Shown piece after piece: positions 3,276 to 53,120 of a stretch of 64,000 nucleotides of DNA; positions within the stretch are counted from its first letter, which is position 1; every line of letters starts with the position of its first letter. A program made the translations under genes and the position numbers. This stretch comes from Macrotis lagotis (taxonomy: Eukaryota; Chordata; Mammalia; Peramelemorphia; Peramelidae): NCBI RefSeq assembly GCF_037893015.1, contig NC_133658.1, positions 888,586,492-888,650,491 on the forward strand, given 5' to 3'. The notes under the pieces were generated by a model. It did no database searches. It was not told the origin of the DNA and worked only from the letters and a program-made list of their open reading frames with translations.

Positions 3276-3597
3276 CATTTCTCAGATTGGCTAAAATGAT
3301 AGATACCTATCAAATGGGGAAGGGTCAAAAAATAATACTAAGCTATAGGAAAAGATGAGTTGGTTAGTTTAGAACAACATGGAGACTTGGACCTTATGAA
3401 GGAAGATGATATCTGTCTCTAGAGGCAGAACTGACAAATTGAAATATGCATTGTGTTGTCTTTATACATATATATAATATGCTTATAGATATGTATAAAT
3501 ATGTATATATTCACTTTTTTTAGTTTTTTTTTTTGTAAGGCAGTGGGGTTAAGTGACTTGCCCAAGGCCACACAGCTAGGTAATTATTAAGTGTCTG

Positions 3598-3722
3598 AAT
3601 AAATTCTCAAGCCTGCATTTCATTCTTTTTAAGGAAAAATGAGCCTAGCCTGTATGTGAGATTGTGCTCCTAAGTAGCTAGATTTACAGATTTACAGATT
3701 TACAGATTTACAGATTTACATA
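3598..3722 (-). repeat. Insert inside SINE: inverted copy of 4416-4511
   Basis: The reverse complement of 3598-3688 matches 4416-4511 nearly base for base, for example AGGAGCACAATCTCACATAC and TTTTTCCTTAAAAAGAATG. The insert lacks five bases (about GTCTT) present in the downstream copy, and ends in five copies of GATTTACA. The SINE borders show that this copy is the newcomer at this site. Confidence 0.9.
3681..3720 (+). repeat. (GATTTACA)5 tandem repeat
   Basis: Five perfect 8-bp units lie exactly at the right junction of the inverted insert. The downstream copy of the insert has a single unit (as TGTAAATC at 4416-4423). Confidence 0.97.
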
Positions 3723-3941
3723 TTTGAACTCAGCTACTCCTGACTCCAGGGCTGTTGCTCTGTCCACTGCACCACCTAGCTGCCCCTATATTCACATTTA
3801 ATTGTAGTTTTCTCTAGGGTTGGGTGGGGAGGGATGAAGAAAAAATAAAAAGTGAACAGCAGAGAACAAAAGGAAACTTGGAAGCACAGAAAAAGAGTAG
3901 CTTTGAAAATGACGTGTCAAATTCATTTAAAAAAGAGGAAA

Positions 3942-4077
3942 GCTAGGTGGCACTGTGGATAGAGCACCGGCCCTGGAGTCAAGAGAATCTGAAGCCTCAG
4001 ATACTCAATAATTACCTAGCTGAATGACCTTGGGCAAGTCACTTAACCCCATTGCTTCGCAAAAGCTAAAAAAAAAA
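3942..4077 (+). mobile_element. SINE type A
   Basis: Plus-strand copy from GCTAGGTGGCACTGTGG through CTTGGGCAAGTCACTTAACC to an A-rich tail. AGGAAAGCT flanks both ends and may be the target duplication. Confidence 0.88.
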
Positions 4078-4214
4078 GGAAAGCTTTGAAATGGAAATTT
4101 TATCATTTTTTATATTAAGCCCTTTCTTATGTTCTGCTGTGTACATGGGAATGGACTTTTTCTTTTCTTTTTTGAATTTAATTTAAAATGAATTTAAAAA
4201 GACACATGTCCAGT

Positions 4215-4412
4215 TACAAATCTTGCCATTTCCCCTTCTACAACATTTCTCTTCTATGTCCTCTTTTTTCTGTTTGCACAACCACCATGCTCCTAGTGCA
4301 GGCCCTCATGACTCCTGGTCTCTATTTTCACTACCTTCTAATTGCTCTTCCTGCCTCTAGTTTCCTCCCACTCCAATTTTTCCTTTACTCATTGACCAAA
4401 GTGACTTTTCTA
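4215..4412 (+). mobile_element. L2 fragment
   Basis: Text such as ACCACCATGCTCCTAGTGCA, GCCCTCATGACTCCTGG and CCAAAGTGACTTTTCTA follows the L2 3' coding region. It stops where the sequence duplicated at 3598 begins. Confidence 0.6.
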
Positions 4413-4415
4413 AAT

Positions 4416-4511
4416 TGTAAATCTAGCTACTTGTCTTAGGAGCACAATCTCACATACAGGCTAGACTCATTTTTCCTTAAAAAGAATGAAATGCAGCCTT
4501 GAGAATTTATT
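4416..4511 (+). repeat. Downstream partner of the inverted repeat at 3598-3688
   Basis: Contains TGTAAATCTAGCTACTT, AGGAGCACAATCTCACATAC and GCAGCCTTGAGAATTTATT, the reverse complement of the insert in the upstream SINE. It is the likely template, because here the sequence is not inside another element and carries only one 8-bp unit. Confidence 0.85.
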
Positions 4512-4589
4512 GGTAAAGAATAGGTTGGGGTAAGTCTCAAGCCTAGAGTGTACACAGTCCCTCATTTCTACTTCTTAGAATTCTTGTTT

Positions 4590-9796: not shown

Positions 9797-22237
<12,441 letters not shown>

Positions 22238-31400: not shown

Positions 31401-32337
31401 GTGATCTGAGATGGGGAGGGCGGGCTAGGTGAAGCGGCCTGCTCGGCCTCGGAGGAAGCCGGGAGCCCTGCGATCGATTGATGCTGGAAGGTAAACATTG
31501 GTTTTCCCCGGTGGGTCCAGCGGCTCACGCCGCCGGTGGCTTGCTCCGTGTCTGTCCGGACCAGAGAGGCGGCGCGGGCTTGCTCCTGCGCCCTGCGGGA
31601 GCCGCTCGGGGCCCTCTCCGGCAGGGTCCGGCGGCTGCGCCCTGGGCCGGCCCAGCCCGGGGGCCCTTTCCAACTTGCAAGTCTTGCTCCCGGCACATGG
31701 CTGGGGAAACTTTGCCGGCGAATCAGAGCGGCTCCAGTCTTCGCAGGAGCTCTCTTCATTATCAAAGCTCTGTTGTGACAGCCCTTTTTTTCCTTTCTCT
31801 TTTTTCCTCCCCAGCTCCAGCGTGGGAATTTGGCTGCCTCTTCTGGCATTTTTGTTAAGAGTTCGAGGTTGGGGGCTGGAGCCCCTGCCCTCTGGTCTTC
31901 CCGGAGACACCCAAACGATGTGGCCCCGAGTGTCAGAGGCAGGTGCATGTCCGGGGCCCCAGGGGCTCACTGAAGCTCCAGCTCGGGACTGGGGCAGGCA
32001 AGCTGGGGAGGAGGGTCAAGGGCCTGGAAGGGCGCTTGGGGCCCCAGAGCAGGAGGGCGGGCGGACTGAGCAGCTCCGGGGCCAGCGCCCAGCGCAGTGC
32101 CTGTGTCTGTGCGAGCAGGGGAGGGGGCTCGTGGGGGCACCCTCTGCCAGCCGGGCTTCTCCCCAGGTTGGCCTGCGGCGGCCAGCTCAGGGCGGGGTCT
32201 GGCGCCCCTGGGCCCGCCGGCCTCCGCCGCCTGCCCTCCCCCGGGGTCCCTGCCCCGGCCTCAGTCCGCGGCTCCCGGCCTTGGGGAGGCGCCCGGCCGT
32301 CCGGCTGCCCGAGCCCCCGGGGCCAGCTCGAGGCGCC

Positions 32338-32635
32338 CCTCCGGGCCGGTCCCTCCCGGCCGGTCCCTCCGGGCCGGTCCTTCCCTGCCGGCCCCTCCGG
32401 GCCGGTCCCTCCGGGCCGGTCCCTCCCCGCCTGCCCCTCCCCGCCGGCCCCTCCGGGCCGGTCCCTCCCCGCCGGCCCCTCCGGGCCGGTCCTTCCCTGC
32501 CGGCCCCTCCGGGCCGGTCCCTCCGGGCCGGTCCCTCCGGGCCGGTCCCTCCCCGCCGGTCCCTCCCCGCCGGCCCCTCCGGGCCGGTCCCTCCGGGCCG
32601 GTCCCTCCCCGCCGGCCCCTCCGGGCCGGTCCCGG
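32338..32635 (+). repeat. 14-bp GC minisatellite upstream of CHD5
   Basis: About 21 units with exact 14-bp spacing. Two main variants alternate irregularly: CCGGGCCGGTCCCT and CCCCGCCGGCCCCT. As 14 is not a multiple of three and the unit has no stop, all three forward frames read the same 14-residue period (rich in G, P, S and R), as do reverse frames. Confidence 0.95.
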
Positions 32636-46325: not shown

Positions 46326-46445
46326 AGAAAGATCCACCAGAAAGGTTCAAGTCACTTTAACCAGGACTGTGATGAGGGATCAAAGAGGAAGTAGCACAAG
46401 AGATAGATCCTGTGGGTCTCCGTTTCCTCCCTTTGCTCTCCTAGA
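46326..46445 (+). repeat. Local direct duplication, copy 1
   Basis: AAAGATCCACCAGAAAGGTT and the following bases are identical to 46964 onward for 38 bases, then similar for about 75 more. Confidence 0.9.
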
Positions 46446-46960: not shown

Positions 46961-47078
46961 GGAAAGATCCACCAGAAAGGTTCAAGTCACTTTAACCAGG
47001 GACTATGGTGGGGATCAAAAAGGAAGTAACACAAGAGATTGGCCCTGTGGGGCTCTATTCCTTCCCTTTTGAGAAGGG
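46961..47078 (+). repeat. Local direct duplication, copy 2
   Basis: GGGAAAGATCCACCAGAAAG to CTATTCCTTCCCTTTTGAG, the partner of 46326-46445 at 635 bp distance. Confidence 0.9.
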
Positions 47079-53038: not shown

Positions 53039-53082
<44 letters not shown>

Positions 53083-53120
53083 TATATATATATATATATA
53101 GTGTGTGTGTGTGTGTGTGT
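53039..53120. repeat. (AC)21(TA)10(GT)10 compound repeat with 60-bp perfect palindrome
   Basis: AC units run 53039-53080, TA 53081-53100, GT 53101-53120. The span 53061-53120 equals its own reverse complement, so it can fold fully on itself. Confidence 0.97.

Follow-up and report, generated by a model that had tools for sequence, protein, structure and literature searches.

Templated insertions of the MMBIR type (MMB-TI), which are detected with MMBSearch, are described as being copied in inverted orientation from a template close by and as showing microhomology where they join the flanking DNA; two people were reported to carry 103 and 99 such germline events of at least 25 bp (PMC8421209). 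Inverted foldback insertions recovered at yeast breaks range from 2 to ∼150 bp in length (PMC11724301), and a human long-read set contained 15 template sequence insertions (PMC8082928). The locus described here lies in a window of 64,000 nucleotides (the whole stretch of DNA that was analysed) from Macrotis lagotis contig NC_133658.1, in which a SINE is interrupted by an inverted copy of DNA situated downstream of it. The features of the locus are listed in Table 1.

Table 1. Features of the interrupted SINE, its insert and the neighbouring elements (window positions).
Feature	Position	Strand	Basis or remark
SINE A left target-site duplication TATATTCAC	3506..3514	.	exact 9-base match to 3787-3795
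SINE A tail-side half	3515..3598	-	+ strand T run is the A tail of the element; many window and genome copies
Inserted inverted copy of 4416-4511	3598..3688	-	base 3598 common to SINE; two genome places
8-base tandem array at inner junction	3680..3725	+	five GATTTACA units; donor has one
SINE A head-side half, restarting at ATTTGAACTCAG	3722..3786	-	first four bases overlap the octamer-array call
SINE A right target-site duplication TATATTCAC	3787..3795	.	exact 9-base match to 3506-3514
SINE B, facing SINE A	3938..4080	+	lacks ∼10 bases (CGGATTTGAA in the direction of SINE A) at the insertion place
Old decayed dispersed repeat stretch	4209..4432	+	32 other partial genome matches; overlaps low edge of donor
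Donor (template) segment	4416..4511	+	arm alignment and genome search

The recipient element (SINE A, 3515-3786) has its tail leading on the + strand and is flanked on both sides by an exact 9-base duplication. Its many dispersed copies, A tail and target duplication mark a SINE and nothing beyond that; it is a putative tRNA-derived marsupial SINE, a class with a tRNA-like head and a marsupial host. The last SINE A bases before the insert are AAGTGTCTGA, ending at 3598. Across the break the consensus of 56 aligned copies (one place counted twice) reads AAGTGTCTGAGGCCGGATTTGAACTCAG, and SINE A has therefore lost ∼5–6 bases (GGCCG or GGCCGG) at the insertion. Over 130 aligned core positions, the junction included, SINE A shows 12 departures from the consensus.

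The insert is 91 bases long and the donor, located ∼0.8 kb away, is 96 bases long. They align in two inverted arms, 3598-3674/4435-4511 (97% over 77 nt) and 3672-3688/4416-4432 (100% over 17 nt), with the main arms 760 bases apart. The reverse complement of 4416-4511 differs from 3598-3688 by two substitutions in 91 paired sites and by one 5-base gap, at which the donor reads AAGACAAG and the insert AAG. The self-match of insert and donor within the window (E = 6e-35) is therefore not due to chance. The insert is inverted and its template is nearby, two of the properties looked for in MMBIR/FoSTeS-type insertions, and neither a target duplication of its own nor an A tail was found in the sequence at the ends of the insert. 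Being complementary, the arms could pair with each other. An earlier note on this DNA had described a SINE at 3515-3786 with its target duplication intact and an insert that is the reverse complement of 4416-4511, ∼0.8 kb downstream, nearly identical to it but for a 5-base gap; the exact TATATTCAC on both sides, the two-arm alignment and the count of two substitutions with one gap agree with this description. Its further statement that the middle of the SINE was replaced by ∼90 bp holds for the size of the insert and not for the replacement, the SINE being interrupted with the loss of merely ∼5–6 bases, and `young repeat' is loose wording for an element that departs from its consensus to the extent given above.

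When 4416-4511 was searched against the 3.66 Gb genome of the animal, two matches were obtained, the donor itself and the insert, in a search which ignores very common words and scores the best candidates only. Among the best 40 of 461 candidates in a SINE search, the part corresponding to the insert matched just SINE A and its donor. Close half-pairs of the SINE (halves −20 to +40 bases apart, one duplicated locus removed) were collected from the window and 27 other places, namely loci L005-L032 with L014 and L028 counted as one, and 53 of 70 had exactly intact spacing. A further 15 half-pairs were 41–400 bases apart, and among these SINE A alone has both halves without another partner; cross-matches between neighbouring SINEs, which half-pairs may include, were checked for in these 15 wide pairs. 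A dispersed repeat was rejected as the identity of the insert because the genome matches are limited to two places at this locus, and a SINE-subfamily part was rejected on the genome and SINE searches together with the half-pair counts. That the insert is either of these is a practically negligible prospect, contradicted by the two-place genome result unless the search missed copies. Retrotransposition of the insert was rejected on account of ends that carry neither tail nor target duplication. The earlier note had named a common interspersed repeat at 4416-4511 as a possibility to be checked, and none was found, the two genome matches both belonging to this locus; its preference for template switching over retrotransposition is borne out by the ends of the insert and by the local position of both matches.

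Low-copy local pairs (at least 50 bases, at least 85% identity, at most 3 kb apart) were also collected in 203,274 bases, made up of the window and 45 loci matching parts of this region (L001-L004, L033, L034 and L028 left out); two inverted and three direct pairs were present in this sample, which is non-random and supports no rate. The inverted pair other than insert and donor is at locus L036, where 524-913 and 2038-2437 form a 400-base pair (92%, 1.1 kb apart). In the window, 16971-17097 and 18168-18294 form a direct 127-base pair (90%, 1.2 kb apart) for which the genome search gave these two places only; it may be a further case of local templated copying, with the copy in direct orientation. 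A second direct pair lies at 46327-46434 and 46962-47069 (87%, 0.6 kb apart). The direct pair 244-340/2492-2591 (85%) has two weaker genome matches elsewhere and is therefore possibly a decayed repeat. Overlapping direct self-matches at 32335-32633, with offsets of 112 and 168 bases and ∼92% identity, suggest tandem repetition of a 56-base unit, and an (AC)n (TA)n (GT)n run at 53041-53120 gives rise to a 60-base perfect palindrome at 53061-53120.

The direction of copying was assessed from the surroundings of the donor. A query of 4200-4560 gave 32 other genome matches, all of them partial and all within 4209-4432, a stretch which is presumably L2-like. Twelve of these 32 extend at least five bases over the low edge of the donor. 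The old repeat thus crosses this edge, and the donor place is therefore the older arrangement and 4416-4511 the source. The overlap between repeat and donor is short, and the absence of the insert from other SINE copies is the stronger argument. Judged from these sequence comparisons, SINE A is the recipient of the copy.

The switch was probably later than the insertion of SINE A. Insert and donor differ at two of 91 sites over two lineages, compared with seven differences from the consensus in the 124 SINE A core sites that lie away from the junction (Fisher p = 0.034), a comparison that uses a consensus which need not equal the true source copy of SINE A. When CpG-type sites were left out, four of 119 SINE A core sites differed and the result was not significant (p = 0.22). 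A core extended by five bases at its start gave eight of 129 (p = 0.019), or five of 124 without CpG-type sites (p = 0.12).

The inner junction carries the octamer array, with 5.8 copies at 97% matches over 3680-3725 and five exact GATTTACA units. In bottom-strand order the joint runs from SINE A (...GAGTTCAAAT) through one A and five TGTAAATC units into donor TAGCTACTT, and AAATC is common to the consensus SINE (GTTCAAATC) and the donor (TGTAAATC). The final bases of the array admit two readings, a mutated octamer or donor sequence to 4411 plus one added base, and the exact joint is therefore uncertain. Junction homology amounts to ∼5 nt (GATTT/AAATC) on one side, where its placing is uncertain owing to the octamer array, and to ∼1 nt on the other. 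Among 200,000 random site pairs in the window, homology of at least 5 nt was found in 0.6% and of at least 4 nt in 1.9%, and 44% reached ∼1 nt. This pattern suits template switching or microhomology-primed repair, and for the ∼1-nt side end joining is as good an account as a switch back. The octamer units may date from the switch itself or from a later time.

Very probably, template-switch or repair synthesis (FoSTeS/MMBIR-type, or primed synthesis plus end joining) struck a SINE that was already in place. A bottom-strand 3′ end (...GTTCAAATC) inside SINE A would have left its template and annealed to the donor through AAATC; the donor would then have been copied from 4416 to 4511, after which the strand may have returned to SINE A or been joined with its remainder. 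Slippage, either during the switch or afterwards, may have added the octamers, and synthesis in the opposite direction would be an alternative course. Fork-based (FoSTeS/MMBIR) and break-based versions (microhomology priming at one end and end joining at the other, as in yeast) fit the locus alike.

Inverted local copies are a known type of chimera, and a fold-back artefact of the library or the assembly was considered. Such an origin is highly improbable given the two substitutions, the 5-base gap and the octamer array that distinguish the copies; moreover, the SINE restarts almost in place and its target duplication is intact. Reverse transcriptases of the kind that insert SINEs switch templates, and a jump to nearby DNA and back during the insertion of SINE A would explain the locus by one event instead of two. 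It is nevertheless very unlikely, as the enzyme would have had to come back to almost the exact place on the SINE RNA after the jump, and the arms appear, if weakly, younger than the SINE. A reverse-transcribed local transcript that filled a break in the SINE, as proposed for class 2 templated sequence insertions, would account for the missing tail and target duplication and for the microdeletion and microhomology, which these insertions share; the donors of that class are described as distant (PMC5110952), and, with the donor here on the same chromosome at a distance of 0.8 kb, local DNA copying is the simpler explanation, so that such an RNA patch is considered quite unlikely.

Within local template-switch or repair synthesis, a contribution of SINE B, which sits between recipient and donor, was considered. 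In an alignment of SINE A with SINE B, tails aside, the sole gap falls at the insertion place. Elsewhere in the window, 16248-16390 is a SINE copy with an internal deletion nearly the same as that of SINE B. The predicted fold of 3515-4085 (the donor being outside this range) has a z score of −9.9 relative to shuffles, with none of 100 as good; its main stem is the pairing of SINE A with SINE B, and the insert lies outside the stem. When the uninterrupted form is folded, the largest stretch predicted to be unpaired in the SINE A stem is 12 nt (TGAACTCAGCTA); it starts inside ATTTGAAC, which follows the lost bases, and adjoins the switch site. With the extra joint base (3721) included, the longest unpaired run is 6 nt and is at the switch site. 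The largest predicted mismatch between the two SINEs thus falls on the switch site or next to it, which is a hint of a SINE-SINE hairpin. In the fold without the extra base, pairing is predicted for the lost bases and for the greater part of the AAATC tip, so that a tip left free became less well supported.

SINE A folded on the facing SINE B might have stalled synthesis or released the end, a step for which the indications are weak. As a general statement, that facing SINEs which fold together steer template switches to the mismatch of the pair, by stalled synthesis or a freed 3′ end, is unlikely. Against a causal link, the mismatch covers about a tenth of the stem, deletions of at least four bases occur there in four of 56 copies (SINE B included), and the deletion in SINE B may have taken place either before or after the switch. 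If the link is true, mismatches within inverted SINE pairs would predict the sites of such insertions, and, should the link hold genome-wide, the starting points of mutations of this kind would follow a rule; without it, the locus adds one ordinary case to the local templated insertions. In a literature search judged mainly by titles, no insertion located where an inverted SINE pair is mismatched was listed, and absence from print is not claimed.

The kind of mutation is already known, and the present example is ordinary in kind and well preserved. As a record of template switching it is unusually easy to read, with donor and recipient intact, other SINEs uninterrupted and a stutter array at one junction. 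It shares with MMB-TI events the inverted orientation and a template close by; however, MMBSearch takes templates up to 100 bp away, so that arms 760 bases apart would not be called, and MMB-TI events are germline variants in people whereas the allele here is that of a reference assembly (PMC8421209). The four-point model of short-range template switching shares the jump, the copying in reverse direction and the return near the start, and is described for great apes with templates at distances of tens to hundreds of nucleotides compared with 0.8 kb here (PMC7954356). The foldback insertions at yeast breaks likewise have one microhomology-primed end and the other end joined with 0–5 bp, but they are described from induced breaks with a 41-nt loop and most are shorter than 14 bp, whereas the span here is 0.8 kb (PMC11724301). 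Class 2 templated sequence insertion polymorphisms resemble the locus in lacking a tail and target duplication and in showing a microdeletion and microhomology, and differ from it in the distant donors and RNA template put forward for them (PMC5110952), the donor of the insert in SINE A being local.
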